Below are positions 35,185-64,000 of a stretch of DNA of 64,000 bases, in pieces. This DNA comes from Candidatus Eiseniibacteriota bacterium (lineage in GTDB: Bacteria > Orphanbacterota > Orphanbacteria > Orphanbacterales > Orphanbacteraceae), in contig JAJCZU010000004.1 in the NCBI GenBank assembly GCA_029262235.1, positions 930,001 to 994,000 on the forward strand. The letters are read 5' to 3'. Within the stretch, counting starts at the first letter, position 1. The number at the start of each line of letters is the position of its first letter. Under the pieces are notes generated by a model. The model saw nothing but the letters and a program-made list of their open reading frames with translations. It was not told where the DNA came from and did no database searches. Made by a program: the position numbers and the translations under genes.

Positions 35185-35267
35185 TTCCCGGAAGCCCGAC
35201 TGAAGCCGGGACCGGACCAGTCAGGAATCGATCGATCTGAACCTGCCACATGAACCGGGAGGCTCCC

Positions 35268-45378: not shown

Positions 45379-45524
45379 TGAAGGCCTCGATGGGATGGCG
45401 GAGTTGAACGGGGGTAACACGCTACAATCTAGTGTATTCTCGATTCCTGCTCCGGACAAGGGGTCCGTTCTCTCATCATTCGGTCTGTTTTGCCGATGAT
45501 TCGACAGATACAGAGAGGCTATGT

Positions 45525-47459
45525 GTGGAAGATCGAAGTGTTCGACAAAAGGCGCTGTTGCTGCTCGCCCTCGTGGCGGCGACGGCGATCTACGCGTGGA
45601 TCCTTCCGCAGCGCTACGTAACGCCTGACGAAGGCGCCCATCTCATGAGCGCCCGCCGCATTCTGCTCGGCGAGTTCCCGTGCGTCGACTATTCTTCGCG
45701 CCAGCCGTTTTACGTTCTCGTTCACGCGATCCCCCAGATCTTTTTCGGACAGAGCCTCGACGCGGGGCGCTGGGTCTCGGTCTTCATGACGATCGGGGCG
45801 GGGCTTCTGGCATTCAGCATGGCGCGCGGCAGAAATGATCTCGCCGGACCGCTGGCCGCCATGTTTTTTCTGTTCTCGCCGCTGACGATTCACTACGCAA
45901 CCGTAGTCCAGACGCAGCCCGTCGTGATCGTAACGAGCGGTCTTGCCATATTGCTCTCGATTCGAAAGCGGGGGAACTGGGACTATCTCGTCGGACTTCT
46001 GCTGGCCGCTTCCTTCTATGTGCGCGAATCGGGGCACGCGGCGACGGCGGCGATTTTCTGCGTGTTTCTCTTCTCGCGCGAATGGCGTCGCATGCGCACG
46101 GTGGCTCTCGGCTATGTGGGCGGCATTTTTCTCTGCTACCTGATCTACGCCACGCGGATTTCGCCTCTCGCATTCTGGGATTCCCGTTTGAACCCCGTCT
46201 GGCTCGTTGTATACAGCATGCGGAAGCTCATGTGGAAGTTCGCCCCCGGCGGTGCGGACGATTCGATGGACGAAACGGAAATCATGAACGATGCGACCGA
46301 AACGGGCGGCGACTTCCTGTTCGAACCCGACAGCTATCTCTTCCTGATCGTTGCCGCGCGGATGCTCTTCGGTCCGATCGCGCTCTTCGTGGCGGGCTGG
46401 TCGCTCGGCATTCCCGCGAAGCTCGGCGAGCAGGGCCGGCGTACCGCGATCATGATCACGACATGGATTTTCTTCCTGACTCTCTTCTATACGTACTGGT
46501 ATCTCGTGCGCGGTTTCTATCCCGGTTATCTGCGTGAGTTCGAACTGCCGATGGCCGTTCTCGGCGGGATGGTGGTCGGGCATACGATCCAGAAGACGGG
46601 GCTCCGCTTCTGGCACGCCGCTCCGCTTGCGGCGTTTCTCGTTGTTGCCGTGCAGATCACGCGGCTTCGGTTCCCGGTCTGGATCGAACCGCTCACGCTT
46701 GCCTTTGCGGGCGCGATCGGCCTGATCGTGCTTGCCCGCGGCATTCCGCGTGAACGGGACGACTGGATGCGCATGGCGGCCGCGATCGGTACGCTCGGTG
46801 TCGTGTTCGTGCTTCGGCGTGCGGGGGGCCCGCTTGCGCACATGGCGCACGGACCGCTCCTGTTCTTGATTCTGCTGCTTGCGGCCATGCTGCTTCTTCT
46901 TGCGGGACGGCGATCGGACCAGGGCCGCCAGGGGCGCCTTCTGGCCGCGCTTGCATTCGCCGGGATCATTGTCGCCGCAGACTCGTGGTACCAGAAGGGG
47001 GGCATGAGTTTTCACGGCCGGTGGACGCGGAGTATGGTCGATGAAGTATCCGCGGTAGTCCGTGAGAATTCCAATCCAGACGACGAAGTCATGTCGGGCG
47101 GCATGATCTGGACGTTTCTCGCCGATCGCAAGCCCTTCCAGAACGCGAACCACCCGCTCGGCTTTTATGATGTCGATATCGACTCCCCCGAGTCGGACTA
47201 CTGGTTCGAGCACTACAGGAATCATCCGCCCGCGATCGTCGTGCTCGACTCCTATACGGAGCGCATCTTCTTCAAGAGTACGGCGCTGCACGAAGCGATC
47301 GAGCGGGACTATCGCCCCGTATTCGAAAAAGGCGACGATCCGCACGTGACGGTTCTGCTTCACAGGAGCCGCGGACTTCCCCTTTCGAAGGCCCCGGCGC
47401 CATCCGAACCGGCGCCATCCGAACCGGCATCGCTTGCGAATCAGGCCGCCTCTCACTGA
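45525..47459 (+). CDS. GT39/PMT-like membrane glycosyltransferase
   Basis: A 644-residue integral membrane protein. Start GTG with AGAGAGG upstream. About twelve helices follow. The first periplasmic loop has RYVTPDEGAHLMSARRILLG, the Asp-Glu pattern of PMT-type (GT39/GT83) enzymes that use a polyprenyl-linked sugar. Further loops carry SSRQPFYVLVHA and a C-terminal globular part (GFYDVDIDSPESDYW, DSYTERIFFKS). The tail repeats PAPSEPAPSEPAS. It lies 146 bp upstream of the sat-cysC cluster and could transfer a sugar in the same surface pathway. Confidence 0.85.
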   Translation: MEDRSVRQKALLLLALVAATAIYAWILPQRYVTPDEGAHLMSARRILLGEFPCVDYSSRQPFYVLVHAIPQIFFGQSLDAGRWVSVFMTIGAGLLAFSMARGRNDLAGPLAAMFFLFSPLTIHYATVVQTQPVVIVTSGLAILLSIRKRGNWDYLVGLLLAASFYVRESGHAATAAIFCVFLFSREWRRMRTVALGYVGGIFLCYLIYATRISPLAFWDSRLNPVWLVVYSMRKLMWKFAPGGADDSMDETEIMNDATETGGDFLFEPDSYLFLIVAARMLFGPIALFVAGWSLGIPAKLGEQGRRTAIMITTWIFFLTLFYTYWYLVRGFYPGYLREFELPMAVLGGMVVGHTIQKTGLRFWHAAPLAAFLVVAVQITRLRFPVWIEPLTLAFAGAIGLIVLARGIPRERDDWMRMAAAIGTLGVVFVLRRAGGPLAHMAHGPLLFLILLLAAMLLLLAGRRSDQGRQGRLLAALAFAGIIVAADSWYQKGGMSFHGRWTRSMVDEVSAVVRENSNPDDEVMSGGMIWTFLADRKPFQNANHPLGFYDVDIDSPESDYWFEHYRNHPPAIVVLDSYTERIFFKSTALHEAIERDYRPVFEKGDDPHVTVLLHRSRGLPLSKAPAPSEPAPSEPASLANQAASH

Positions 47460-47515: not shown

Positions 47516-47544
47516 TTGACCCTGTGTTCTAAATGGGCTACTAT
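47516..47544 (+). promoter_or_regulatory. Sigma-70-like promoter of the sat-cysC cluster
   Basis: TTGACC (47516-47521), a 17-bp spacer and TACTAT (47539-47544), one of the best promoter matches in the window. Start would be near 47551, giving a ~55-base leader before the RHH gene. Confidence 0.65.
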
Positions 47545-47572
47545 TGGAGCCTTGTCAGAGTGTAATTAGAAC
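47526..47572. promoter_or_regulatory. Candidate operator flanking the -10 box
   Basis: GTTCTAA (47526-47532) and TTAGAAC (47566-47572) are perfect inverted 7-mers, 40 bp centre to centre, on both sides of the -10. A direct repeat ATTGGAG occurs at 47544-47550 and in the leader near 47588. The first gene codes for an RHH protein that could bind here; this is inference. Confidence 0.35.
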
Positions 47573-47605
47573 CCAAACGGTAATCTGATTGGAGTCCCGA
47601 GCCTC

Positions 47606-47827
47606 ATGGCCGATCCACGTGTCACCATCAAAATCCCACGCCAGCTGTACAACAAGATCGGCGAAGTGATTGCGGATTCGGGGTTTAGCTCCCCAACCGA
47701 CTTCATCGTCTTCGTCTTGCGGGACCTGGTGGGAGGGGCGTCCATCGAGCCGTCCCGCGACGGGGAGTCTCCCGAGGAGATTCACGACATCCGGCAGAAG
47801 CTCAAGAACCTCGGTTACCTGGAGTAA
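47606..47827 (+). CDS. Ribbon-helix-helix protein with LGY tail (first of cluster)
   Basis: A 73-residue protein. Residues 5-42 form a CopG/MetJ-like ribbon-helix-helix: a short strand (RVTIKIP), helix 1 (RQLYNKIGEVIADSG) and helix 2 (SPTDFIVFVLRDLVGG). RHH dimers normally bind operator DNA, so it may regulate its own operon. The C-terminal part ends in the tail PEEIHDIRQKLKNLGYLE, shared with CysC, the second RHH protein and the lipoprotein at 25467. It lies six bases upstream of sat. A non-DNA-binding scaffold role is possible. Confidence 0.8.
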   Translation: MADPRVTIKIPRQLYNKIGEVIADSGFSSPTDFIVFVLRDLVGGASIEPSRDGESPEEIHDIRQKLKNLGYLE

Positions 47828-47833
47828 ATCAAC

Positions 47834-48997
47834 ATGATCAAAGCGCACGGCGGGAAGCTCATCAATCGCGTCCCGGAAGGAAAAGAACGCGAAGCACTCG
47901 AGGAACTCGCTCCGAGTCTTCCGAAGATTCATCTGAACGAACGCGAGCTCGCGGACTTCGAAATGATCGCCATCGGCGCGTTTTCGCCGCTCGAAGGATT
48001 CATGACCGAAGACGACTATCTCGCCGTCCTCGATCTGAAGCGCCTCGCGAAGGGACTCCCGTGGACGATCCCGGTCACGCTGTCCGTCAAAGGTGACGAC
48101 GACTCCGCATTCGAAGAAGGCGCCAAAGTCGCGCTGGTCGGCCCGGGCGAGGAAATCCTCGGCGTCATGCAGATCGATCAGAAGTTTCACTTCGACAAGG
48201 TCGCGGAAGCCGAAAAGGTGCTCCTGACGAACGACGAAGCGCATCCCGGCGTCCGGTACCTCGGCACGATCGGCGACAAGTATCTCGGTGGTCCGATCTG
48301 GATGCTGCACCGCCCGAAGCACCACAGCTTCGAGAACTACCGTCTCGATCCGAAAGAAACGCGCGTGCTGTTCAAGGCGAAGGGGTGGGACACGATCGTG
48401 GCGTTCCAGACGCGGAACCCGATCCACCGCGCGCATGAATATCTGCAGAAGTGCGCGCTCGAAGTCACCGACGGCCTGCTGATCCATCCGCTCGTCGGAC
48501 AGACGCAGAAGGGCGACATTCCTGCCGACATCCGCATGGATTGTTACAAGCTGCTGCTCGAGCACTACTATCCGAAGACGCGCACCGCGCTCTCGATCTT
48601 CCCGGCCGCCATGCGCTACGCCGGCCCGCGCGAAGCCGTTTTTCACGCCCTGGTTCGCAAGAACTACGGCTGCTCGCACTTCATCGTCGGCCGCGACCAC
48701 GCGGGTGTAGGCAGCTATTACGGCACGTACGACGCCCACTATATCTTCCTGGAATTCGACCGTTACGAGATCGACATCACGCCGATGTTTTTCGATCACT
48801 CGTTCTTTTGCAGGAGATGTGGGAATATGGGGTCGCAGAAGACGTGCCCGCACGACTCGTCCGATCACGTGTTTCTCAGCGGCACGAAAGTGCGCGAAAT
48901 GTTAAGTGAGGGGATCATGCCCCCGTCCGAATTCACCCGGCCGGAAGTGGCGGAACTCCTGATGAGCTACTACACGAAGGAGAAGGAGACCGCATGA
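47834..48997 (+). CDS. sat: Sulfate adenylyltransferase (ATP sulfurylase)
   Basis: A 387-residue cytosolic enzyme making adenosine 5'-phosphosulfate (APS) from ATP and sulfate, homo-oligomeric Sat type (not CysDN). Motifs include the active-site QTRNPIHRAHEY, HPLVGQTQKGDI and GRDHAGVGSYYGTYDA. The C-terminal CRRCGNMGSQKTCPHD resembles the zinc-binding cysteine set of bacterial/archaeal Sat. Its end overlaps the first phosphodiesterase by four bases (ATGA). With cysC downstream and no APS/PAPS reductase, its product is probably destined for sulfation, not reduction. Confidence 0.96.
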   Translation: MIKAHGGKLINRVPEGKEREALEELAPSLPKIHLNERELADFEMIAIGAFSPLEGFMTEDDYLAVLDLKRLAKGLPWTIPVTLSVKGDDDSAFEEGAKVALVGPGEEILGVMQIDQKFHFDKVAEAEKVLLTNDEAHPGVRYLGTIGDKYLGGPIWMLHRPKHHSFENYRLDPKETRVLFKAKGWDTIVAFQTRNPIHRAHEYLQKCALEVTDGLLIHPLVGQTQKGDIPADIRMDCYKLLLEHYYPKTRTALSIFPAAMRYAGPREAVFHALVRKNYGCSHFIVGRDHAGVGSYYGTYDAHYIFLEFDRYEIDITPMFFDHSFFCRRCGNMGSQKTCPHDSSDHVFLSGTKVREMLSEGIMPPSEFTRPEVAELLMSYYTKEKETA

Positions 48998-50367
48998 GCC
49001 GTCTCGCACTGCTTGGTTTTGACGGGCTCGACCCGGAACTCGTCGAACGCTGGCTCGGCGATCTGCCGAACCTGAGCGAACTGATGTCCGAAGGGATTCA
49101 CGGCAAGCTCGAGTCGACGTATCCCCCGACCACGATTCCGGCCTGGACGTCGATGATGACGTCCCAGGATCCGGGTCAGATCGGGCTTTACGACCGGCGC
49201 CGCAGAATTGGTCGCAGCTACAAATACGAAACGGTCGACTCGATGGCCATTCGCCAGAAGACGATCTGGAATTACACGTCGCGCGTGCGCCTGGAAGCGC
49301 TGCTTGTCGGCGTGCCGCAGACGTTTCCGCCGAAGCCGCTCAAGGGCTCGCTCGTTTCGGGACTGCTGACTCCGAACAAGGAACTGCAGTGGACCTACCC
49401 GCGCGAACTCGCGAACGAAGTCGAGAACGCGGTCGGCGGCGACTTTCCGTTCGACGTCTACGGCTATCAGACGAAGAACAAAGACTGGCTCGTCGAGAAG
49501 GTGTACGACATGACGCGGAAGCGTCTCGGCACGTTCCGCCATTTCGCGCGCAAGCGTGAGCACGACCTTCTGATGATGGTCGAGCACGGCGCGGACCGCA
49601 TCCAGCACGGTTTCTGGCGGCATATGGACGAAGAGCATCCGAACTTCGTGCCGGAGTCCCGCTTCGCGGAGGTCATTCACGACTACTACGTGTTTCTGGA
49701 CCAGGAGATCGGCAAGCTGCTCGAAGACCTGCCGCGCGACACGTCGGTCATGCTCGTTTCGCCGTTCAGTTCGCAGCCCTTGAAGGGGTGCGTGCGCCTG
49801 AACGAATGGCTTCAGCAGGAAGGCTACCTCGTTCTGAACGAGGAGGCGAAAGAGGGCGAACCGCTCGATCTGAAGCAGGTCGACTGGACGCAGACGGAAG
49901 CGTGGGCGGACGGCGGCGCGGTCGGCCAGATCCATTTCAACGTGCACGGGCGTGAGCCGAACGGCTTCGTTCCCGCGGAAGAAATCGAGAATCTGAAGAA
50001 CGACATTCGCGAGCGCGTCATGACGATCGAACAGGACGGCGCGCGCGTTTCGAGTATTGCGGAAGCGCCGGAGCAGATGTATCGCGCGGCGAACGGCAAC
50101 GGGCCCGACCTGATCGTAAAGTTCGAAGATCTCACGTATCTCGTCTCCCCCGTGATGGGCGGCGAGATCATTCAGTCCGAGAACGACGCCGGTCCCGACG
50201 ACACGACGCATCGAGGAGAAGGGCTTTTCATCTGGGATCATCCCGCGAAGATGGAGCCGAAGAAAAAAGACACGTATTCCATTTACGACATCGCTCCCAC
50301 GATTCTGACGTACTTCGGGATCGACGTTCCGGAGCACATGATCGGCGAGAGTTTGATCTCGCTTTGA
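48994..50367 (+). CDS. Alkaline-phosphatase-superfamily phosphodiesterase with degenerate metal site
   Basis: A 457-residue protein of the type I phosphodiesterase/nucleotide pyrophosphatase family (PF01663 type). It has D10 (LLGFDGLDP), a T47 nucleophile (PPTTIPAW) and the ADRIQH pair. But where paralogues have S-D-H-G-F, this one reads S-P-F-S-S (residues 256-260), losing one Asp and one His ligand. No signal peptide, so cytosolic. It is wedged between sat and cysC by a 4-bp overlap and a 13-bp gap. It may be a scaffold or regulator of PAPS synthesis, or an enzyme with one metal. Confidence 0.85.
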   Translation: MSRLALLGFDGLDPELVERWLGDLPNLSELMSEGIHGKLESTYPPTTIPAWTSMMTSQDPGQIGLYDRRRRIGRSYKYETVDSMAIRQKTIWNYTSRVRLEALLVGVPQTFPPKPLKGSLVSGLLTPNKELQWTYPRELANEVENAVGGDFPFDVYGYQTKNKDWLVEKVYDMTRKRLGTFRHFARKREHDLLMMVEHGADRIQHGFWRHMDEEHPNFVPESRFAEVIHDYYVFLDQEIGKLLEDLPRDTSVMLVSPFSSQPLKGCVRLNEWLQQEGYLVLNEEAKEGEPLDLKQVDWTQTEAWADGGAVGQIHFNVHGREPNGFVPAEEIENLKNDIRERVMTIEQDGARVSSIAEAPEQMYRAANGNGPDLIVKFEDLTYLVSPVMGGEIIQSENDAGPDDTTHRGEGLFIWDHPAKMEPKKKDTYSIYDIAPTILTYFGIDVPEHMIGESLISL

Positions 50368-50380
50368 GGGAGAAACAACG

Positions 50381-50983
50381 ATGAAGGGCTTCACGCTTTG
50401 GTTCACCGGACTGTCCGCGTCCGGCAAGACGACACTCGCGCGCGAGGTGGAAGAGATTCTGCTCGAACGCGGCCTGCCGGTCGAGATTCTCGACGGCGAC
50501 GTCATTCGCACGAACCTCTCCAAGGGACTCGGCTTCTCGAAAGAGGACCGCGACGAAAACATCAAGCGCATCGGTTTCGTATGCCAGCTGCTGAGCCGGA
50601 ACGGCGTCGCGACGATCGCCAGCGCCATCAGCCCGTACGCCGAAGCGCGCGATTCCGTCCGCGACAAGATCGACAACTTCGTCGAGGTGTACGTCAAGTG
50701 CCCGCTCGAAGTGCTGATCGAGCGCGACGTGAAGGGGCTTTACAAGAAGGCGCTCGCAGGCGAGATCACGGGCTTCACGGGCGTCGACGATCCGTACGAA
50801 GAGCCGGTCAAGCCGGAGATCCTGATCGAATCCGACAAGGAGTCCGAAGCCGAGAGTGTCGCGAAGATCGTGCGCACGCTCGAGCTCATGGGCCTCATTC
50901 CGGGCGCCGACGCGAACAAAGACTTCTCCGATGAAGAAGAGGAGAAGATCAAGCAGCGCCTGAAGGACCTCGGCTATATTTAG
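50381..50983 (+). CDS. cysC: Adenylylsulfate kinase (APS kinase) with LGY tail
   Basis: A 200-residue cytosolic enzyme that phosphorylates APS to PAPS, the sulfate donor for sulfotransferases. P-loop GLSASGKTT, substrate motif DGDVIRTNLSKGLGFSKEDR and the lid region YKKALAGEITGFTGVDDPYE are canonical. Bacterial CysC is usually about 170-200 residues. The last ~20 residues, FSDEEEEKIKQRLKDLGYI, are an extra helix and carry the tail shared with the two RHH proteins and the sulfatase-like protein. GGGAG lies before the ATG. Confidence 0.96.
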   Translation: MKGFTLWFTGLSASGKTTLAREVEEILLERGLPVEILDGDVIRTNLSKGLGFSKEDRDENIKRIGFVCQLLSRNGVATIASAISPYAEARDSVRDKIDNFVEVYVKCPLEVLIERDVKGLYKKALAGEITGFTGVDDPYEEPVKPEILIESDKESEAESVAKIVRTLELMGLIPGADANKDFSDEEEEKIKQRLKDLGYI

Positions 50984-51056
50984 GTTCGGAAAAAAATCGA
51001 GGAGGGTATGTGTCTTCGGCATCGACGGAGTACCGCATACCCTCCTTGCCCGTTTC

Positions 51057-52280
51057 ATGCAGGAAGGCGTGATGCCCCGCGCGAAGGAAATCTTTGCGCG
51101 CGGATCGCTCCGTAAAATGAAGGTGACGCTCCCCGAAATCTCGTCTGTCAGCTGGACGAGTTTCATGACCGGCATGGCGCCCGGCGAGCACGGAATCTAC
51201 GGCTTCACCGATCTGAAACCCGACAGCTACGACATGACGTTCCCCTCTTACCCCGATCTGCCTGTCAAAACGCTCTGGGAGCGTCTGGCTGAGAAGGGGA
51301 AGCGGAGCGTGGTGATCAATCAGCCCGCCACGTATCCGGCGCGCCCGATCGAGGGGGCGCTGATCTCCGGGTTCGTGGCGATCGACCTGCGCCAGGCCGT
51401 GCATCCGAAATTTCTGTACGCGAAGCTCCAGCAGCTCGGCTACGAGATCGATATCGACGCGCAGGAGGGCGGGAAGAACGCCGATTCCCTCTTCAAACAG
51501 CTCGAAACGGGCCTCAGAGGGCGCAGGAAGGCGTGGGATTACCTCTGGAACCGTGAGAAGTGGGACTACTTTCAGGTGGTCGTAACGGGCACGGACCGCC
51601 TCATGCACTTCCAGATGCCGGCCGCCTATGACCCCGCCCATCCCGAATTCGAGCGATTTCGTGCGTATTATTCCGCCGTAGACTCTTTTCTCGGAGAGGT
51701 GTTTGAGCGATACGTAGAGAAGACCGGGGACGAGGCAGGCGAGGGCTTCTGGGTCCTCTCCGATCACGGTTTCTGCGCGATCGAGCAGGAGTTCTATGTG
51801 AACGCCTGGCTCAGGAGCGAGGGGTATTTGAGCTTTGAAAACGATCCGGCGAAGTCGCTGGGCGAGATTACGCCGGAAAGCCGCGCATTCGCGCTCGACC
51901 CGGGGCGCATTTACGTGCACCGGTCGGACCGCTATCCGAAAGGGTCGGTCGCGCCGGCCGACGCGGCGGGCGTGGCAGACGAGATCCGCGCGAAGCTGCT
52001 GGCGCTCGAGCACGGCGGGGCCGCGGTCTGCCAGGCGGTGCACCAGGGCGAGGAATTGTACTCGGGAGCGCACGCGAACCGCGCGCCGGATCTGGTGCTC
52101 ACGGCCCGGGATGGTTATGATAGTAAGGGATGGCTCGGTCCATCCGAGCCGTTCGGCCGGAGCCATTTCACGGGAATGCACAATTGGGACGACGCGTTCG
52201 TGTGGAACGCGTCCGAGCTGCCGGAGTCCATGGTCATCACGGACATCGCTCCCCGGATCGAATCACGGCTGTCGCAATAA
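51057..52280 (+). CDS. Phosphodiesterase paralogue, apparent frameshift at start
   Basis: A 407-residue open frame from ATG 51057, but homology starts upstream: bases 51012-51056 in the same frame encode VFGIDGVPHTLLARF, which includes the metal-binding Asp needed for catalysis. No start codon exists in that frame; the ribosome site GGAGGG and an ATG at 51008 are in another frame. A two-base loss in the TGTG stretch after the ATG would explain this. The rest is intact: SSVSWTSF (Ser nucleophile), TDRLMH, LSDHGF and TGMHNW. It is cytosolic-looking without a signal peptide. Confidence 0.7.
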   Translation: MQEGVMPRAKEIFARGSLRKMKVTLPEISSVSWTSFMTGMAPGEHGIYGFTDLKPDSYDMTFPSYPDLPVKTLWERLAEKGKRSVVINQPATYPARPIEGALISGFVAIDLRQAVHPKFLYAKLQQLGYEIDIDAQEGGKNADSLFKQLETGLRGRRKAWDYLWNREKWDYFQVVVTGTDRLMHFQMPAAYDPAHPEFERFRAYYSAVDSFLGEVFERYVEKTGDEAGEGFWVLSDHGFCAIEQEFYVNAWLRSEGYLSFENDPAKSLGEITPESRAFALDPGRIYVHRSDRYPKGSVAPADAAGVADEIRAKLLALEHGGAAVCQAVHQGEELYSGAHANRAPDLVLTARDGYDSKGWLGPSEPFGRSHFTGMHNWDDAFVWNASELPESMVITDIAPRIESRLSQ

Positions 52281-52302
52281 TAAGAATCGTACCAGGAGTA
52301 TT

Positions 52303-54480
52303 TTGCACGTGTTCTCTCGTCACTTTCGAACTCTCGCCTGGGTCTTTGCACTCACGGCGATCTTTTTCTGCGCGGATCCTGCCGAAGCGTACATCGGACC
52401 GGGTGCGGGTTTCGCGTTCCTGTCGTCCTTCATGGTGCTCTTCGTCACGTTCATTCTCGCGTTCGTCTCGATCCTGCTCTGGCCGATTCGTTTCGTCTGG
52501 AAGCTGATCTTCAAAAAGCGGCCGCCGAAGACGGATGTGGATCGCGTGATCGTGGTCGGCCTCGACGGCTTCGACCCGAACCAGTGCAGGAAATTCATGG
52601 CCGAAGGGAAACTGCCGCACTTTCAGAAACTGGCCGACCAGGGCACATTCGATGAACTGCAGACGGTTTTCCCCGCGATGTCGCCGGTCGCCTGGTCTTC
52701 GTTCGCGACGGGCGTCGACCCCTCACGGCACAATCAGTTCGACTTTCTGAACCGCGATCCGCGAACCTATCTTCCTGACCTCGCGTCCGTCTACATCGGG
52801 AATGTTTCGCGCGTGCTGAATCTCGGGAAATACAAGCTGCCGCTCGGCAAGCCGGTCATTCGTCTGCTTCGCAAGTCGCAGCCGTTCTGGAAGATTCTCG
52901 GCGAGTACGGCATCTTCTCGCATATTCTGCGCGTGCCGATCACGTTCCCGCCCGAGAAGCACAACGGCCTTCTGCTTTCGGCCATGTGCGTACCCGACAT
53001 CAAGGGGTCGCAGGGAACGTTTACGTATTACACGACGGACGAAAGCGAAGTGGGCGAGGCAACGGGAGGCGTCCGGCGCGTCGTGAAGCGGAACGGCAAT
53101 ACGGTAGAAGGCGACATTCTCGGTCCGTCGAATTCGATGACGAAGGACGAGGAAGAGCTGACCGTACCGTTCAAGATCACGATCGACGACGCGAAAGCGC
53201 TGGCCACGATCGACTACAACGGCGAAAAAATTCCGCTCAAGCAGGGCGAGTACTCCGAGTGGATCCGCACGCCCTTCAACGCCGGTATGGGCGTCAAGGT
53301 CTGGGGTCTCGTGCGGTTCTATATCATGGAGATGGGCGAGCACTTCAAACTCTACGTTTCGCCGATCCAGATCGACCCCGAAAAGCCGGCCATGCCGATT
53401 TCTCACCCCACGTTCTACTCGATGTATCTTTCGAAGCTGCTCGGAAGCTTCGCGACGCTCGGCTTCTGCGAGGACACCTGGGGGCTGAACGAGCGCGTGA
53501 TCGACGAAGACGCGTTCCTGAAGCAGACCTGGATCACGCACGAAGAGCGCGAACGCATGCTCTTCCATAGTATGACGCAGGTGAAGAAGGGCTTTCTCGT
53601 GTGCTGCTTCGACGGCACCGACCGCGTACAGCACATGTTCCAGCGCTATCTGATGCAGGGCCATCCCGCCAACGCGAAGCTCGACGAGAGCGCGTACAGT
53701 GACGAAATCGAAAAGCTCTACATCCGCATGGACGAGATGATGGGCCGCGTGATGGACAAGGTCAAAGACGACAGCAAGACCGTCCTGATGGTCATGTCCG
53801 ATCACGGTTTCGCGCACTTCTCGCGCGGCGTCAATCTGAATTCGTGGCTCGTCGAAAACGGGTACATGGTCATGAAGGACGGCGGCAGGACGTGCAAGGA
53901 CTGGTTCCGCGGCGTCGACTGGGAGAAAACGAAAGCGTACAGCTTCGGGCTCGTCGGCATTTATTTGAACATCAAGGGTCGCGAAGGCCAGGGAATCGTG
54001 GAGCCTGGTGAAGAAGCCGCGGCGCTCCGCCAGGAGATCAAGGAGAAGCTGGGGGCGCTGGTCGACCCGAAGACGGGCGCGAAAGTCATGAACGACGTCT
54101 TCAAAACGGAAGAAATCTACACGGGACCCTACGCGCAGAACGGTCCCGACCTTCTCCCCGCGTTCGACGAGCATTACCGGCAGTCGTGGGAAGCCGCGGT
54201 CGGGAAAGCGGAGCCGGAAGTCATTATCGACAACGTGAAAGCATGGTCGGGCGATCATTGCCTCGACTGGCGCATCGTGCCCGGCGTTCTGTTCTCGAGC
54301 CGCAAACTCGCGCGCAAAAATCCCGGCATCATGGACATGAGCGCGTCGATTCTCGACCTCTTCGGGATTCAGCGACCGGGTTATATGCTCGGGCGCTCAT
54401 TCTTCCGCGAAGATTCGTCCGACGCCGGGCAAACGCAGAAACAGTCACCCCCTGAAGAGAGAGAAGTCGCGAATGCGTAA
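52303..54480 (+). CDS. Membrane-anchored phosphodiesterase (alkaline phosphatase superfamily)
   Basis: A 725-residue protein. N-terminal signal-like helix then a second helix (about 38-75: AFLSSFMVLFVTFILAFVSILLW) anchor it in the inner membrane. The catalytic domain shows VGLDGFDP, the nucleophile region SPVAWSSF, TDRVQH, SDHGFAHF and SGDHCLDW, i.e. all metal ligands. A ~150-residue insert (GSQGTFTYYTTD onward) is shared with the next gene. TTG at 52303 is used (AGGAG four bases upstream); GTG at 52309 is an alternative. Substrate unknown; lipid- or glycan-phosphodiester is plausible. Confidence 0.85.
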   Translation: MHVFSRHFRTLAWVFALTAIFFCADPAEAYIGPGAGFAFLSSFMVLFVTFILAFVSILLWPIRFVWKLIFKKRPPKTDVDRVIVVGLDGFDPNQCRKFMAEGKLPHFQKLADQGTFDELQTVFPAMSPVAWSSFATGVDPSRHNQFDFLNRDPRTYLPDLASVYIGNVSRVLNLGKYKLPLGKPVIRLLRKSQPFWKILGEYGIFSHILRVPITFPPEKHNGLLLSAMCVPDIKGSQGTFTYYTTDESEVGEATGGVRRVVKRNGNTVEGDILGPSNSMTKDEEELTVPFKITIDDAKALATIDYNGEKIPLKQGEYSEWIRTPFNAGMGVKVWGLVRFYIMEMGEHFKLYVSPIQIDPEKPAMPISHPTFYSMYLSKLLGSFATLGFCEDTWGLNERVIDEDAFLKQTWITHEERERMLFHSMTQVKKGFLVCCFDGTDRVQHMFQRYLMQGHPANAKLDESAYSDEIEKLYIRMDEMMGRVMDKVKDDSKTVLMVMSDHGFAHFSRGVNLNSWLVENGYMVMKDGGRTCKDWFRGVDWEKTKAYSFGLVGIYLNIKGREGQGIVEPGEEAAALRQEIKEKLGALVDPKTGAKVMNDVFKTEEIYTGPYAQNGPDLLPAFDEHYRQSWEAAVGKAEPEVIIDNVKAWSGDHCLDWRIVPGVLFSSRKLARKNPGIMDMSASILDLFGIQRPGYMLGRSFFREDSSDAGQTQKQSPPEEREVANA

Positions 54481-56509
54481 ATTCTGGCCAGGCTGGTCCC
54501 GTTTCGGGATCGCGACGGGGATCCTTGCGGGCGGCGTGCTGATCGCCCTCGTGACCGGCCCCGGGTTTGCCGACTCGAAAAAGAAAATGATGGTGATCGG
54601 ATTCGACGGCATGGATCCGAAGCAGCTTCAGCAGCATATCGACAACGGATACATGCCGAACTTCAAACGCCTGATCGAGAAGGGGAGCTTTACGACGCTC
54701 GGGACGAGCATCCCGCCGCAGAGTCCCGTCGCCTGGTCGAACTTTATTTCGGGTAAGAATCCGGGCGGCCACAATATCTTCGACTTCATTCATCGTGATC
54801 CGAAGACGTACCTGCCGTTCCTGAGCACGTCGGAAGCGGTCGGTTCTTCGAAATCGATCGAGCTCTGGGGCGACTGGCAGCTGCCGCTCGGCGGCGGCGA
54901 GGTCGTGCTGCTCCGCGAAGGGCGCGCGTTCTGGGAACTGCTCGAGAAGGCCGAAGTGCCCACGACGATCTTCAAGATCCCGGCGAACTACCCGCCCGTG
55001 CAGACGAATGTCCGTACGCTGTCGGGGATGGGCACGCCCGACATGCAGGGGACGCCGGGAACGTTCACGTACTTTACGACGCATCCCCCGGAGAACGCCG
55101 ACGACATTTCCGGCGGCGCGGTGGTCGACATCTATTTCGATCGCGACAAGAGCGAAGCTTCGATACCCGGCCCGCCGAACCCGTTCCACAAGAAGGGCAA
55201 GGAGACCGGCGCGAAAGTCACGATGTATCGCGACAAGGAGAACCAGGTCGCGAAGATCGTAACGGGCGACGAAGAGGTCATCATGAAGCCCGGCGAGTTC
55301 AGCGAATGGGTGCCGGTCGAGTTCTACATGCTCGGCGACGAAGGTTTCGGCGATAAAATTCGTCCCGCCGCCGCGCCGATGGGACTTGCGATCGGCGGAT
55401 CCGTACGCTTCTATCTGAAGTCGGTCTATCCCGAGTTCAGCCTGTATGTCACGCCCGTGCAGATCGATCCGCTGAAGCCGGCCCAGCCGGTATCGACGCC
55501 CGATGACTGGTCGCAGAAGATCGCCGAGCGGACGGGGCGCTTTTACACGCAGGGCATGCCCGAAGATACGAAGGCGCTCGAAGGCGGCGTGTTCACGGAC
55601 GGCGAGTTCCTGCAGCAGGCGACGCTCGTTCTCGACGAACGCATGAAGCTCTTCGAAACGATGGTCAGCGATTTCGCACAGGATGAATGGGGCTTCCTGT
55701 TCTTCTATTTCTCGTCGCTCGATCAGCAGACACACGTCATGTGGCGCACGATGGACCCGAGCCACCCGGGAACCGACTCGCTCGCGCTGCAGTATCCGGA
55801 CGCCATCCCGAGTATCTTCAGGCGGCTCGACAAAGCCGTGGGCGTTGCGATGGATCAGCTCGGCGACGACGCCACGCTCGTCATCATGTCGGACCACGGG
55901 TTCGCGCCCTGGTACCGCGAAGTGCATCTGAACTCGTGGCTCGCGGACAACGGCTACCTGACGCTCAAGGACAATTCGGAGAGCGTGCGCGCCTCGTCCG
56001 ACTTCTTCATGAACGTCGACTGGCGCCGCACGAAAGCGTACGCGCTCGGCATCAACGGGCTTTACATCAACGTGCGCGGCCGCGAGAAGAACGGCACCGT
56101 CGCACCCGGGAAAGAGCGCGATGATCTCATGAACGAGCTGATCGCGAAGATGAAAGAGCTTCGCGACCCCAAAACGGGCGAGCTCGCGATCAAGGAAGTC
56201 TACAAGAGCGAAGAAGTGTTCCAGGGACCGTACGTGAAGAACGCGCCCGACTTGAACGTCGGTTACGCGTACACTTTCCGCGGCTCCAACGAGTCGGCGC
56301 TCGGCGAGTTCCCGATGGAGTGGTTCGCGGACAATACCGGCAAGTGGTCGGGCGATCACTGCATCGCGGCGGACCTCGTCCCCGGTATCCTGATCTCGAA
56401 CCGCAAGGTGAAAAAAGAGGGCGCCGCGCTTTACGATCTTACCGCGACGATTCTTGCCGAGTTCGGTGTGGACAAGGATGAAGACATGATCGGATCGCCG
56501 GTCTTTTAG
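54473..56509 (+). CDS. Exported phosphodiesterase (alkaline phosphatase superfamily)
   Basis: A 678-residue paralogue overlapping the previous gene by 8 bp. A signal sequence (MRKFWPGWSRFGIATGILAGGVLIALVTG, cleaved near FADS) sends it to the periplasm. Metal ligands: VIGFDGMDP, SLDQQTH, SDHGFAPW and SGDHCIAA; nucleophile region SPVAWSNF. It shares the GTPGTFTYFTTHPP insert with the 52303 protein and is the most complete of the four. In the superfamily such proteins hydrolyse or transfer phosphodiesters. Confidence 0.87.
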   Translation: MRKFWPGWSRFGIATGILAGGVLIALVTGPGFADSKKKMMVIGFDGMDPKQLQQHIDNGYMPNFKRLIEKGSFTTLGTSIPPQSPVAWSNFISGKNPGGHNIFDFIHRDPKTYLPFLSTSEAVGSSKSIELWGDWQLPLGGGEVVLLREGRAFWELLEKAEVPTTIFKIPANYPPVQTNVRTLSGMGTPDMQGTPGTFTYFTTHPPENADDISGGAVVDIYFDRDKSEASIPGPPNPFHKKGKETGAKVTMYRDKENQVAKIVTGDEEVIMKPGEFSEWVPVEFYMLGDEGFGDKIRPAAAPMGLAIGGSVRFYLKSVYPEFSLYVTPVQIDPLKPAQPVSTPDDWSQKIAERTGRFYTQGMPEDTKALEGGVFTDGEFLQQATLVLDERMKLFETMVSDFAQDEWGFLFFYFSSLDQQTHVMWRTMDPSHPGTDSLALQYPDAIPSIFRRLDKAVGVAMDQLGDDATLVIMSDHGFAPWYREVHLNSWLADNGYLTLKDNSESVRASSDFFMNVDWRRTKAYALGINGLYINVRGREKNGTVAPGKERDDLMNELIAKMKELRDPKTGELAIKEVYKSEEVFQGPYVKNAPDLNVGYAYTFRGSNESALGEFPMEWFADNTGKWSGDHCIAADLVPGILISNRKVKKEGAALYDLTATILAEFGVDKDEDMIGSPVF

Positions 56510-56522
56510 TAAGGAGGAAATC

Positions 56523-56717
56523 ATGTTCGGTGGACCCAAAGTAAAACTGACGAAAGATCTTTTCGAACGAGTCAAGAAGTACGCCCAGCTTGCGGGCTAC
56601 TCTTCGGTCGACGAATTCGTCGTGCACGCTCTCGAAAAAGAGCTGGGCGGACTCGAAGACAGCGCGTCGGAAGAAGAGATCAAGAAAAAGCTCCAGGGCC
56701 TCGGCTACATCTCGTAG
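56523..56717 (+). CDS. Small ribbon-helix-helix-like protein with LGY tail (second)
   Basis: A 64-residue protein, AGGAGG before the ATG. Residues 6-42 (KVKLTKDLFERVKKYAQLAGYSSVDEFVVHALEKEL) have the strand-helix-helix layout of RHH proteins and resemble the first cluster protein at 47606. The end EEEIKKKLQGLGYIS is the shared tail. Lys/Arg on the strand could contact DNA, but the short length and tail also fit an adaptor peptide. Confidence 0.72.
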   Translation: MFGGPKVKLTKDLFERVKKYAQLAGYSSVDEFVVHALEKELGGLEDSASEEEIKKKLQGLGYIS

Positions 56718-56735
56718 CCCGTCCTTAAACGAATC

Positions 56736-56753
56736 GGGCCTCGCATGAGGCCC
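56736..56753 (+). terminator. Perfect hairpin after the second RHH gene
   Basis: GGGCCTC-GCAT-GAGGCCC, a perfect 7-bp stem, lies 18 bp after the RHH stop and before the membrane gene. No T-tract follows; it may be partial termination. Confidence 0.4.
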
Positions 56754-56782
56754 TGCCAGCGAAGCGAAGGAACCGTCGTCAC

Positions 56783-57601
56783 ATGTGGCCTATTGTTCAG
56801 GCGTTTACCAAGTTTTTCGATCTTGCGATCGCGCTCTTTCAGTCGATGCACCCCATTGTCGGGCTCACTGTGATCTCAGTCCTGACCGGCGCCGTGATGC
56901 TCGTGGTCTGGAAGTTCACGTCGAATCAGGATGCGATCGCGCGTTCGAAATCGAAGATCGCGGCTTATATCCTCGAAATTCGTCTCTTTCCGGACGACAT
57001 GCGCGCGCAGTTCGCGGCCCAGGGGCGTGCGCTCGGCGCGAACTTTCGCTATATGACGTACGCCATTCCGCCGATGCTGATCGTCCTGCTCCCCGTCGTC
57101 GCGATTCTCGTGCAGCTCGATGTGCGTTATCAGCGCCGGCCGCTCGAGCCGGGTGAAGTGACTCTGCTCAAGGTGAAGGTCGCGGAAGAAGTCGACCTGG
57201 CAAGTGTGACGCTCGACGCGCCCGCCGGCATCTTCGTGGAAACTCCCGCCATGCGCGTCGTGGCCGAGGATGAAGTCGACTGGCGCCTGCGGGCCGACAC
57301 GCCTGGCGAGTACGACGTCAAAGTCACCGCGGGAGCCACGGTCGAGACGAAACGAATCGTGGTCGGTGAGCGCCTCACGAAGCTCGCCGAGTTCCGGGAG
57401 CAGTCGAACTTCCTGACCATCTGGATGGCGCCCGCAGAAAAACCGCTCCCGAAGGGATCCCCGATCCACGAGATCCGGCTCACCTATCCGGAACGCGAAA
57501 TGAAGCTGGCCGGCATCTCCATGCACTGGCTGCTCGTCTTTTTCGTGGTGTCCGTGCTGTTCGGATTCGCGATCAAGGGAATCGTAGGCGTCGAAGTCTG
57601 A
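56783..57601 (+). CDS. Membrane protein with beta-sandwich domain, EMC3/TMCO1-like fragment layout
   Basis: A 272-residue protein. Helix 1 (about 25-45), a charged helical hairpin (SNQDAIARSKSKIAAYILEIRLFPDDMRAQFAAQGRAL), helix 2 (about 95-113), an extracytoplasmic strand-rich domain (125-240: EPGEVTLLKVKVAEEVDLASVTL) and a C-terminal helix (WLLVFFVVSVLFGFAI). The charged hairpin between helices reminds me of Oxa1/EMC3-type proteins, but this is only a layout likeness. Family and function are unknown. It ends the cluster and meets the M28 gene head-on. Confidence 0.75.
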   Translation: MWPIVQAFTKFFDLAIALFQSMHPIVGLTVISVLTGAVMLVVWKFTSNQDAIARSKSKIAAYILEIRLFPDDMRAQFAAQGRALGANFRYMTYAIPPMLIVLLPVVAILVQLDVRYQRRPLEPGEVTLLKVKVAEEVDLASVTLDAPAGIFVETPAMRVVAEDEVDWRLRADTPGEYDVKVTAGATVETKRIVVGERLTKLAEFREQSNFLTIWMAPAEKPLPKGSPIHEIRLTYPEREMKLAGISMHWLLVFFVVSVLFGFAIKGIVGVEV

Positions 57602-60575: not shown

Positions 60576-62765
60576 ATGCGGAAAACGATGATTCATAAGC
60601 ATATCCCGGCCCTGGGGCGTTTCTGGGCGCCCGGCGTGACTTCAGTCACGCTGGCGCTTCTCGTTGGGTCAGGTGCCGGCGGACTGTTCGTGGCGCGCGC
60701 GGAAGCTGCTCCGACGATCACCGAACACAGGATATCGCTGGAGCTCGACCCGCGGCGCTCGGAGATTCGCGTCAACGACACGTTCCTGTTGAGGGGCGCC
60801 GCCACGAGTTCGGTGCGCTTTTTTCTGCACGCGGGCCTCACGATCGAGTCGATGAGCGCGGGGGGGCGGTCGCTCACCTGGAAGAAGGAATCTCACGACG
60901 ACCCGGACTGGGAACATGCCGCGCGTTATCGGGCCGCGCTGCCGTCCACTTCGGACGAGGACGTGGAAATCCAGATCAAGTACGCGGGCAGCATCGTCGA
61001 CAGCGTCGCGGACGGCACGACGGGCACGATCGAGAAGCAGGGCGCGTTCCTTTCGAGCGAAACGGCCTGGATCCCGACGATCCCCTCTTCGCGCTACACG
61101 TTTTCGATGATCGCGGTCACGCCGCAATCCTGGGAGATACTGACGCAGGGTAGGCTCGAGGCGCGCTCGGACGGCGGCGGAAGAAAGACGACGCGCTACG
61201 TGTCCGAAATCCCCATGGACGAAATCTACTTCGTCGCCGGGCCGTACCGGTTCTACGAATCCGACCACAGGGGGATCCGGATCGTCGGGCTCCTCTATCA
61301 GGCGGACGACGCCACGGAACTCTGGGAAACGTACCGGGCCGCTGCAATGCGCTACCTCGATCTGTACGGCGGACAGATCGGGCGCTATCCGTATACGAAA
61401 TTCGCTTTCGTCGAGAACTTCTGGGAGACGGGATACGGCATGCCCTCGTTCACGCTTCTCGGCAGCAAAGTGCTGCGCCTCCCCTTTATTCCGGAGACAT
61501 CGTTCCGGCATGAAGTGCTGCACAACTGGTGGGGGAACAGCGTGTTTCTCGACCCGGATCAGGGAAACTGGTGCGAGGCGCTCACGAATTACATGGCCGA
61601 CTTCGCGAAATCCGAAGAGGAAGGCGAGGAGGCGGCGCGGCGCCACCGTCTGCGCGAGCTGCAGCGCTTCTGGAACGAGCAGGAAAAGAACCGGGCGGTA
61701 AGCCTCGCGGAATTCCAGCAGGGGGCCGACGAGGACCAGACCGCGATCGGGTATACGAAGGGCGCGTTCTTCTTCCATATGTTGCGCGAGCACGTGGGCG
61801 CGGTACCGTTTGCGCGGTCGATGCAGCGCTTTTATGCCGCGTACCGCGGGAAGGTCGCCGGCTGGGATGAGCTGCGCGCGGCGATCGCGAAGGATACGGG
61901 AACGAACCTCGACAAGTTCTTCGAGGAGTGGGTCGATCGAAAGGGGGCGCCCCGGCTCGAACTCGCGGGCGTTTCCCGCTCCCGTGACGACGGCGTTCAT
62001 GTGACGACGATTACGATCCGGCAGTCCGAGCCGTTCTACGATCTTGACGTTCCTGTGGAAATCGAAACGGAGGACGGGGCGCGACAGGAAGGGTTCGTGA
62101 TTCTCGTTCGGAAGGAGGGGACGCTCGAATGGCGGAGCGAGAGCCCGGTGCGGCGCGTCACTCTGGACCCGAAGTACGATCTGTTCCGACGCCTGAATGA
62201 GAACGAAATACCGCCGAGCGTGTCGACCGTGTTCTCCGGCTCCCGGTTCGGCGTCACGCTCCCCGACACGAGCACGATCTGGCGGGACGCCGTGACGCAG
62301 TGGGACCCGAAGGGGCTCGTTGCCGTGCGCGGGCATGACGAAGGATCGGAGATCGGGGCATCTGATGCCGGCGCGCGGAGCGGGGTCACGATCGATCTCT
62401 GGGACGGCGCCGAATCGTGGACCGCGGCGCACGGTGGTGTCGGTGAATCCGCCGGCGCGGATGGCGGCGGCACGCCTGCGTCCGACTTTCCGATCGCGCG
62501 CAACGATTCCGGCTGGGTCGTGAACGGCGAAGCGATCGGCGACGGCACGCTTTTCTACGTTGCGAAGACGGGAGCACGCAACGCGCGAGGGAACGCTCCC
62601 GGACTGCAGGCCGCAATCGTGGCAAAGCCGGGTGACGATGTCGTCGATATCACGCGCCGGATTCCGTACTACGGTTATTACGGGACGATCCTGTTCCGGG
62701 ACGGCGAGGTCGTGTTCAAGGGCGAATGGGACGCCACGCCTCCGGAATGGAAGGCGCCTGAATGA
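60576..62765 (+). CDS. M1-like (gluzincin) metallopeptidase, exported
   Basis: A 729-residue exported peptidase. Signal peptide in residues 1-45 (VTSVTLALLVGSGAGGLFVARAEA). The zinc site is RHEVLHNWWGN (H312, E313, H316) with E334 in NWCEALTNYM, spacing as in M1. The substrate-binding GAMEN motif of classical aminopeptidases is replaced by YGMPSFTLLG. The ~250-residue C-terminal part (from 480) is not the usual M1 helical domain and ends in a lipocalin- or PDZ-like strand-rich region. The open frame upstream to 60246 is repeat-derived, so ATG 60576 is preferred. Confidence 0.85.
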   Translation: MRKTMIHKHIPALGRFWAPGVTSVTLALLVGSGAGGLFVARAEAAPTITEHRISLELDPRRSEIRVNDTFLLRGAATSSVRFFLHAGLTIESMSAGGRSLTWKKESHDDPDWEHAARYRAALPSTSDEDVEIQIKYAGSIVDSVADGTTGTIEKQGAFLSSETAWIPTIPSSRYTFSMIAVTPQSWEILTQGRLEARSDGGGRKTTRYVSEIPMDEIYFVAGPYRFYESDHRGIRIVGLLYQADDATELWETYRAAAMRYLDLYGGQIGRYPYTKFAFVENFWETGYGMPSFTLLGSKVLRLPFIPETSFRHEVLHNWWGNSVFLDPDQGNWCEALTNYMADFAKSEEEGEEAARRHRLRELQRFWNEQEKNRAVSLAEFQQGADEDQTAIGYTKGAFFFHMLREHVGAVPFARSMQRFYAAYRGKVAGWDELRAAIAKDTGTNLDKFFEEWVDRKGAPRLELAGVSRSRDDGVHVTTITIRQSEPFYDLDVPVEIETEDGARQEGFVILVRKEGTLEWRSESPVRRVTLDPKYDLFRRLNENEIPPSVSTVFSGSRFGVTLPDTSTIWRDAVTQWDPKGLVAVRGHDEGSEIGASDAGARSGVTIDLWDGAESWTAAHGGVGESAGADGGGTPASDFPIARNDSGWVVNGEAIGDGTLFYVAKTGARNARGNAPGLQAAIVAKPGDDVVDITRRIPYYGYYGTILFRDGEVVFKGEWDATPPEWKAPE

Positions 62766-64000
62766 TGCCTTTCCACGCCCTGACGAAACGATTTCGCCTG
62801 GCGCGCCATTGCAGGGGCGCGCTTTCGCTGATGGCGGGCTGCGTCCTTCTGCTGAGCCTGTCGTTCGGATGCGGCGGCGCGAAGCCCGAACCCACCGGCC
62901 TTCGCGTTGCCGTGATCGGGCTCGACGGCGCCACGTTCGACCTGCTCGATCCGTGGTTCGCGGAGGGTCTGCTTCCGAATCTGGCGACGCTCCGCTCGTC
63001 CGCATTCAGCGCCACGCTGGAGTCGGTGATCCCGGCGCTTTCGGCACCGGCATGGACCTCGGCCGTGACCGGGGTCAATCCCGGCAAGCACGGCGTGTTC
63101 GACTTCGAACTGCTGAACAGGGACGAGTTCATCACGGAACCGGCCACCTCGCTCGACCGCGAAGCGAAAGCAGTGTGGGAATACCTCACAGACAGCCACC
63201 GGAGCTCGGTTGTCGTCAGCATTCCTCTGACTTCGCCTCCCGACTCGATCGACGGACTCATGATCTCGGGCTTCCCGCATCTCCGTCCGACCGGGTATAC
63301 GTGGCCGCCGGAACTCGAGAACCAGCTCCGCGCGTACCGGCTCGACAAATACGGCGAGTATCTTCCGCCGGACGGCGAGGACGCGTTCCTCGCGAATCTG
63401 AACGCCACGCGTGAGGCGCGTTATCGTACGGCGATCGAATTCTTCAAGAATGAAGAATGGGAACTGTTCTGGACCGTCTTCATGGGCAGCGACAAGATTC
63501 AGCACTTCTACTGGCAGTTCATGGATCCCGAGGGGCGCGATGTCGATCCGGTGCTGCGGGAGCGCTACCAGCACGCGATACGTGACCATTGGATCCGCGT
63601 CGACGAAATTGTGGGTGAGTTTCTTGCGGCGCGTGACGAGAACACGGTCCTGTTCGTCGTGTCCGATCACGGCTTCGTGCCCGTAACGCGCGAGCTTCCG
63701 CTGCTTCGCTGGATCTGGGACGAAGGATACTGCAGCGCGAATCCGAAGAAATCGCGCGTACTCTACTTTCCGCATCTCGGCGGGCGGCTCACGATCAATA
63801 CGAAGGGCGCGTTCGATGACGGCGTCGTTTCGCCGGGCGAAGAATACAACGCGCTCCGCGATGAACTGCGCGAGAAACTGCTGGCGATCCGCGATCCCGA
63901 CAATGGAAAGCAGGTCGTGAAGAACGTATACTTTCGAGATGAAGTGTATACGGGGCGGTTCGTCGAGAACGCGCCCGACATTCTGATCGAAGGGGAACGC
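62762..64000 (+). CDS. Phosphodiesterase lipoprotein (alkaline phosphatase superfamily), 3' end beyond window
   Basis: The visible 413 residues begin at ATG overlapping the peptidase stop (ATGA). A signal peptide with lipobox-like LSFGC (C37) makes it a lipoprotein. VIGLDGATFD (D55), SAPAWTSA (S94), SDKIQH and VSDHGFVP are the metal and nucleophile motifs. It is the fifth member of the same family in the window, after four in the sat-cysC cluster, but lies 5 kb away and next to a peptidase. No C-terminal tail can be judged because the gene is cut off. Confidence 0.87.
   Translation, partial: MMPFHALTKRFRLARHCRGALSLMAGCVLLLSLSFGCGGAKPEPTGLRVAVIGLDGATFDLLDPWFAEGLLPNLATLRSSAFSATLESVIPALSAPAWTSAVTGVNPGKHGVFDFELLNRDEFITEPATSLDREAKAVWEYLTDSHRSSVVVSIPLTSPPDSIDGLMISGFPHLRPTGYTWPPELENQLRAYRLDKYGEYLPPDGEDAFLANLNATREARYRTAIEFFKNEEWELFWTVFMGSDKIQHFYWQFMDPEGRDVDPVLRERYQHAIRDHWIRVDEIVGEFLAARDENTVLFVVSDHGFVPVTRELPLLRWIWDEGYCSANPKKSRVLYFPHLGGRLTINTKGAFDDGVVSPGEEYNALRDELREKLLAIRDPDNGKQVVKNVYFRDEVYTGRFVENAPDILIEGER

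Follow-up and report, generated by a model that had tools for sequence, protein, structure and literature searches.

An NPP-fold partner of sulfate activation and a shared C-terminal tail that may dock it to APS kinase

Why should the genes that activate sulfate be interleaved with four phosphodiesterase paralogues and two small ribbon-helix-helix-like (RHH) proteins? Sulfate activation is well studied and thermodynamically unfavourable, and the usual genes for it, sat and cysC, occur here within a run of nine + strand genes (47606-57601) in the order RHH1-sat-PDE1-cysC-PDE2-PDE3-PDE4-RHH2-membrane protein, where PDE denotes a phosphodiesterase paralogue. The run lies in a stretch of 64,000 nt from contig JAJCZU010000004.1, analysed as a whole and called the window below; all coordinates are positions in it. 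By family, Sat would make adenosine 5′-phosphosulfate (APS) and CysC would turn it into 3′-phosphoadenosine 5′-phosphosulfate (PAPS). Here we propose that Sat, PDE1 and CysC form a single assembly linked by an exchangeable docking tail, with PDE1 probably acting as a scaffold in the window's genus, a reading towards which we lean with modest confidence. The broader claim, that a portable tail on unrelated folds assembles a Sat-PDE-CysC complex across many phyla and also among archaea, and has passed from one partner to another in evolution, we offer more tentatively, at slightly less than even confidence. The parts on which the proposal turns are these.

47606-47827, +: RHH1, 73 aa, ribbon-helix-helix-like, ending in a C-terminal LGY tail
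47765-47824, +: RHH1 C-terminal tail, ESPEEIHDIRQKLKNLGYLE
47834-48997, +: Sat, ATP sulfurylase (Pfam, NCBIfam), sole copy in the genome
48994-50367, +: PDE1, cytosolic NPP-fold protein (PF01663); metal site 2 degenerate in the window's genus
49756-49776, +: PDE1 VSPFSSQ, in place of the VSDHGA of other phyla; metal-binding D-H pair lost
50381-50983, +: CysC, APS kinase, P-loop intact, tailed at the C-terminus; sole full-length copy in the genome
50924-50980, +: CysC C-terminal tail, FSDEEEEKIKQRLKDLGYI
56523-56717, +: RHH2, 64 aa, RHH-like, with C-terminal tail
56667-56714, +: RHH2 C-terminal tail, SEEEIKKKLQGLGYIS

The family assignments of the two enzymes are firm: Sat matches PF01747 (2e-97) and PUA_2, with TIGR00339 and NF003166 above cut-off, and CysC matches PF01583 (APS_kinase, 1e-61), with TIGR00455 above cut-off and a P-loop present. 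All four PDEs match PF01663 in Pfam. The window copies of RHH1 and RHH2 alone gave no Pfam match; across their families, PF01402 (RHH_1) is matched by 5 of 16 RHH1 members (best 4e-4) and 6 of 17 RHH2 members (best 6e-5), and a comparison of the two profiles shows them to be homologous (hhalign 98.1%, E 1e-13).

What ties PDE1 to this pathway is, above all, gene fusion. Sat and PDE1 form a single polypeptide at nine Chloroflexota-type loci, and at one of these (L158) the polypeptide additionally ends in the tail; these fusions indicate that PDE1 belongs to sulfate activation itself. The association is also widespread. A PDE1 relative is present in 43 of the 116 genomes examined for one, and a scan of genome contigs yielded at least 571 confirmed relatives, the best 80 of which come from Chloroflexota, Zixiibacteriota, Methylomirabilota, Planctomycetota including Brocadia, Acidobacteriota, Latescibacteria, Dadabacteria, Eisenbacteria, Armatimonadota, Melainabacteria and others, and also from two Asgard-type archaea. 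The original prediction depended on PDE genes keeping company with sat and cysC in other genomes, and PDE1 does so, adjoining cysC and/or sat across many phyla and in the two Asgard-type archaea.

The second line of evidence is the tail. CysC, RHH1 and RHH2 of the window share the ending [YF][ST]xEExxxIxx[RK]LxxLGY[IL], preceded by a variable linker, and all four PDEs of the window are tailless. In the genome from which the window comes, a degenerate DNA pattern for a C-terminal L..LGY gave 21 matches, against 2 in a reversed control; the tail-ending frames number 20, namely RHH1, CysC, RHH2 and 17 proteins of the alkaline phosphatase (AlkP) superfamily (PF00884 or PF01663). Among 1631 called genes from loci chosen for PDE1, a sample that describes the neighbourhood and not all genomes, the tail ends 17/17 RHH1, 21/22 RHH2, 51/65 CysC and 46/238 AlkP-superfamily proteins, compared with 0/40 Sat, 0/21 membrane proteins and 6/1228 of all others. 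The formylglycine motif C/S-x-P-x-R occurs in none of the genome's tail-bearing frames (PF00884 proteins, L078-L098), so its tailed PF00884 proteins are probably not true sulfatases. A PF00884-family protein with a lipoprotein-like N-terminus lies in the window itself (25467-26849, +) and ends in the tail LRSLGYVN. At locus L069, a CysD-like PP-loop protein of the PAPS_reduct family (1260-2057 of that locus, +) ends in MMQKLRSLGYM, with a PDE3 homologue in the same gene run.

The tail appears to trade places between CysC and PDE1. Eleven loci (L055 among them) have a PDE1 that carries the tail in cis, and in nine of the genomes concerned an APS kinase was found that is tailless; another (G123) yielded no APS kinase, and G104, which has two PDE1 copies, is taken up below. 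Beside a tailless PDE1, CysC is tailed in 36 cases and tailless in 10, or 36 and 8 when L113 and L152, which are cut by contig ends, are omitted. Set against 0 tailed in the nine genomes, 36 tailed and 8 tailless gives a Fisher value of 5e-6 by genome and of 7e-4 by five lineages, which were assigned by hand, without a tree. The 19-residue consensus is nearly the same for CysC tails and for the cis tails of PDE1, with the AlkP tails of the window's own genome less alike to either. P-loop-less APS-kinase-like proteins (L153, L159, L172, L174) have kept the tail, and in L130 and L206 CysC is fused to an RHH-like segment that ends in it. Four small tail proteins (L067, L122, L142, L156) were considered as degenerate APS kinases and rejected, their homology outside the tail not being significant.

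Could the tail have a more general use, as an address or a turnover signal that some third protein recognises, by which CysC, RHH and AlkP proteins are brought together or broken down jointly? That cytosolic proteins and exported, lipoprotein-like AlkP proteins alike carry it, behind a variable linker, would suit such a tag. No candidate for a receptor or shell was found, however, and both the pattern of CysC and PDE1 tails and a structural model point to the NPP domain itself: in the model of the PDE1 orthologue L163, the cis tail helix has a predicted local distance difference test score (pLDDT) of about 91, and the linker before it scores below 50. We think a tag of this kind quite unlikely.

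If PDE1 is the docking partner, is it also an enzyme? The L163 model (mean pLDDT 94.4) superimposes on the Xanthomonas NPP (7n1s) with Z 29.7 and rmsd 3.5 over 348 residues at 15% identity; by sequence, neither PDE1 nor PDE4 matched anything in the PDB. Outside the window family, nearly every row of the PDE1 alignment retains the seven catalytic residues (D, T, D, H, D, H, H). The window's own set reads DTDHPFH, with two metal ligands lost, and within the family the residues have been lost in several different ways: DMDHCYH in L032, DMDREHH in L034 and L036, DTDRAYH in L035, with L033 intact. The VSPFSSQ segment recurs in a second species of the genus and is therefore not a sequencing error. 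Without its D-H metal pair, the window PDE1 can hardly be an enzyme acting on 3′-phosphoadenosine 5′-phosphate (PAP) or on lipids here; since it is degenerate, its likeliest role is structural, and in this genus it is probably a scaffold.

A rival account takes PDE1 for a plain pathway enzyme, a pyrophosphatase or an APS, PAPS or PAP hydrolase, co-transcribed with sat and cysC, with a tail that is structural and does not dock. The NPP fold and the complete catalytic set of most phyla fit it, as does the finding that the window's own genome yielded no family-I soluble pyrophosphatase, though it does have a membrane pyrophosphatase. Fusions of Sat to pyrophosphatase are known from algae (PMC2275785, PMC3734648), among them stramenopiles and haptophytes (PMC2275785), and these make a role in pulling the reaction by removal of inorganic pyrophosphate (PPi) plausible for an intact PDE1. 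The plain enzyme leaves unexplained why the same tail sits on CysC, on two RHH proteins and on P-loop-less APS-kinase-like proteins, why it moves to PDE1, and why PDE1 is kept in the window family despite such varied losses of metal ligands. We consider it unlikely.

The assembly that we favour combines the two lines. Sat would supply APS and CysC would make PAPS from it, with PDE1 joining the step as an NPP-fold partner, Sat-fused in some phyla and CysC-paired in most. The tail, carried by CysC and RHH1 or, in other lineages, by PDE1 itself, would link the CysC side; its helix would dock on the NPP-fold domain, in cis where PDE1 carries it and in trans where CysC or RHH1 does. RHH1 would probably be a dimeric adaptor and perhaps an autoregulator too. 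Where PDE1 is intact, as in most phyla, it probably hydrolyses PPi or an adenylyl anhydride, thereby pulling or trimming sulfate activation. There is a precedent for such tails within the superfamily: in choline sulfatase and in phosphonate monoester hydrolase a C-terminal tail favours oligomerisation and stretches out to the active site of the neighbour (PMC5870055).

Several observations weigh against this assembly. Docking rests on one single-chain model together with gene patterns. Few tailed PDE1 were available, and of the nine genomes compared five are Armatimonadota-like. In one genome (G104) CysC and a PDE1 are both tailed, although its other PDE1 copy lacks the tail, and in some Chloroflexota neither protein is tailed. 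As a control, CysC loci from genomes without a PDE1 match were counted, and the tail occurs in one of eight. Many of the 17 tailed AlkP proteins of the window's own genome have lipoprotein-like N-termini, and hence the tail is not used in the cytosol or with CysC only. Finally, the loss of catalytic residues in the window family speaks against an essential PPi-hydrolase role for PDE1 here, and the genome has a membrane pyrophosphatase.

How far the rest of the run belongs with this core can be judged from its conservation. Its remaining genes, and the other features discussed below, are as follows.

35250-36173, +: PAPS-type sulfotransferase (Sulfotransfer_1), a likely PAPS consumer
45432-47459, +: GT-C-like polytopic protein, an upstream neighbour conserved in the family; no Pfam match
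47516-47544, +: promoter-like site TTGACC-17-TACTAT, a string match as frequent as in shuffled sequence
50976-52280, +: PDE2, cytosolic PF01663 protein; start uncertain, about 50976-51009
52303 (TTG)-54480, +: PDE3, a signal-like N-terminal segment and transmembrane (TM) helix, then a PF01663 domain (topology from sequence)
54473-56509, +: PDE4, PF01663 protein with a putative export-type N-terminus
56783-57601, +: membrane protein with predicted membrane helices, a long helix and an Ig-like domain (residues about 118-197)

The gene calls agree with the single-direction arrangement of nine genes described in the original prediction, neighbouring genes being separated by 6-65 bp or overlapping by 4 or 8 bp. 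The same order is found in family members and in other phyla. It is complete in three other members of the family (L032, L033, L035), where the GT-C-like gene also precedes RHH1 as it does in the window; in two more (L034, L036) PDE4 is missing at this place. In other families the order is complete in L038, lacks RHH1 in L037 and lacks Sat in L150. Two parts also occur separately: Sat-PDE1-CysC-PDE2, with or without RHH1 (module A; e.g. L042, L045, L048, L175), and PDE3-PDE4-RHH2-membrane protein (module B; e.g. L047, L054, L059, L061). The promoter that had been described as a good one is present as a string, TTGACC-17-TACTAT, but such sites are not commoner than chance (2 found, 2.4 expected in shuffled sequence), so by itself the site is no evidence for an operon. 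A search for RNA families in the window found none.

What, then, is the PAPS for? ATP sulfurylase and full-length APS kinase each occur once in the genome, and both are in this run, which makes it the genome's only source of PAPS. The same genome (95.5% complete) lacks CysH and, with no NIR_SIR (PF01077) match, sulfite reductase as well. PF01507 (PAPS_reduct) matches one protein only, DndC-like and of the PP-loop type, which has a gene with a DGQHR motif close by (L031, contig C3 at about 241 kb); the two possibly mark a DNA sulfur-modification island. There are six Sulfotransfer_3 matches in the genome, including the Sulfotransfer_1 protein at 35250-36173, and to judge by their families these are candidate PAPS consumers. 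The absence of the reductases and the presence of several sulfotransferases argue for sulfation as the use of PAPS, as had been predicted on the strength of the window alone, and a genome-wide look for cysH and cysI has now borne this out. A part for PDE1 as a partner in assimilation was considered and rejected, there being no reductases in the genome.

The same prediction went further and saw here a dedicated sulfation pathway, in which the PDEs, some of the cytosol and others of the envelope, would act on a sulfated or phosphorylated lipid or glycan, or on the by-product PAP. In the fuller form weighed here, the RHH proteins are transcription factors. PAPS that is not destined for assimilation agrees with this, and so do the sequence-inferred membrane anchor of PDE3 and export signal of PDE4, the company that other PDE paralogues of the genome keep with PMT_2 and LPG_synthase_TM genes, and a sulfotransferase gene found after PDE2 in L138. 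The cytosolic side of the scheme is not supported for PDE1, which is fused to Sat elsewhere and has lost its metal pair here. The envelope side is not borne out as stated either: PDE3, PDE4, RHH2 and the membrane protein make up a module of their own, which is also found without sat or cysC. As for the RHH proteins, the segment fused to CysC in L130 and L206 together with the tail is RHH-like to judge by its sequence; even so, fusions of RHH domains to enzymes may keep their DNA binding, as PutA does. Altogether we regard this fuller scheme as improbable.

PAP is a by-product of sulfotransferases. A DHH-type or other PAP phosphatase would remove this by-product, and PHP enzymes act on 3′,5′-bisphosphates. 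A PHP-domain gene follows CysC in L142 and L143 and, by sequence, in L122, L144 and L155 as well, and a DHH gene lies upstream of PDE1 in L173; these are better candidates for PAP removal than the PDEs. PAP is reported to inhibit sulfotransferases (PMC8268124).

Of the proteins outside the core, PDE2 has kept all metal ligands and its nucleophile is likely to be Ser. The first ATG of this gene (51057) comes only after the conserved Asp of the VFGIDG motif. Between the end of CysC and this metal-binding Asp (50976-51057) no standard start codon was found, and in the start region the window has GTA, as opposed to GTG in the sister species. The envelope genes form a second, separable module with the same kind of tail. 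In PDE3, a signal-like segment and a TM helix are followed by positive residues, an order that suggests a catalytic domain on the cytosolic face; the N-terminus of PDE4 is Tat-like in L037, L062 and L067. In the model of the membrane protein, a long helix and an Ig-like domain accompany the membrane helices. A coiled segment between two of its TM helices brought an EMC3/Oxa1/DUF106 insertase to mind; fold searches matched Ig-like domains only, which speaks neither for nor against that idea. Elsewhere in the genome, at about 382-393 kb of contig C3 (L065), two YfhO-like proteins and a PF01663 PDE stand with PMT_2 glycosyltransferases and an LPG_synthase_TM protein. A further PF01663-type paralogue, tailless and 532 aa long, occupies 62762-64000 of the window and runs on past its end to about 64360.

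PAPS synthesis is known; the NPP partner and the shared tail appear to be new, and in the open-access literature (most subscription papers lay outside the search) we found no published description of the arrangement or of the tail. A protein family linked to so well studied a reaction in many bacterial phyla and some archaea seems to have escaped description. Should the tail prove to be a docking tag, it would mark in a simple, genetic way which AlkP-superfamily, kinase and RHH proteins work together, and the organisation of bacterial PAPS synthesis and sulfation would become directly testable. This would include anammox bacteria, Chloroflexota and Asgard-type archaea, groups about whose sulfated products little is known.

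Compared with PAPS synthase or with separate Sat and CysC, the locus uses the same standard ATP sulfurylase and APS kinase families, but an extra NPP-fold protein is interleaved with them or fused to Sat, and CysC has an added tail. The stramenopile and haptophyte fusion likewise joins a phosphohydrolase-type partner to ATP sulfurylase (PMC2275785); there the partner is a conventional inorganic pyrophosphatase, whereas here it is an AlkP-superfamily NPP-fold protein, degenerate in the window's genus. Fungal ATP sulfurylase has a regulatory APS-kinase-like domain (PMC2275785), a non-catalytic APS-kinase relative that recalls L153, L159, L172 and L174, although in these the APS-kinase-like part is a separate LGY-tailed protein beside PDE1. 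The predicted fold of PDE1 is like that of NPP family members such as the Xanthomonas NPP (2gsn/7n1s), with the seven catalytic residues present in most phyla, yet PDE1 has no visible signal peptide, is only about 15% identical, is linked to sat and cysC and has its own or its partner's tail. Closest to the tail itself is that of choline sulfatase (PMC5870055), also a C-terminal tail in the AlkP superfamily that serves oligomerisation and reaches the neighbour's active site; it is longer and sits on the enzyme itself, whereas the tail described here is a short motif found on a kinase and on RHH proteins as well.

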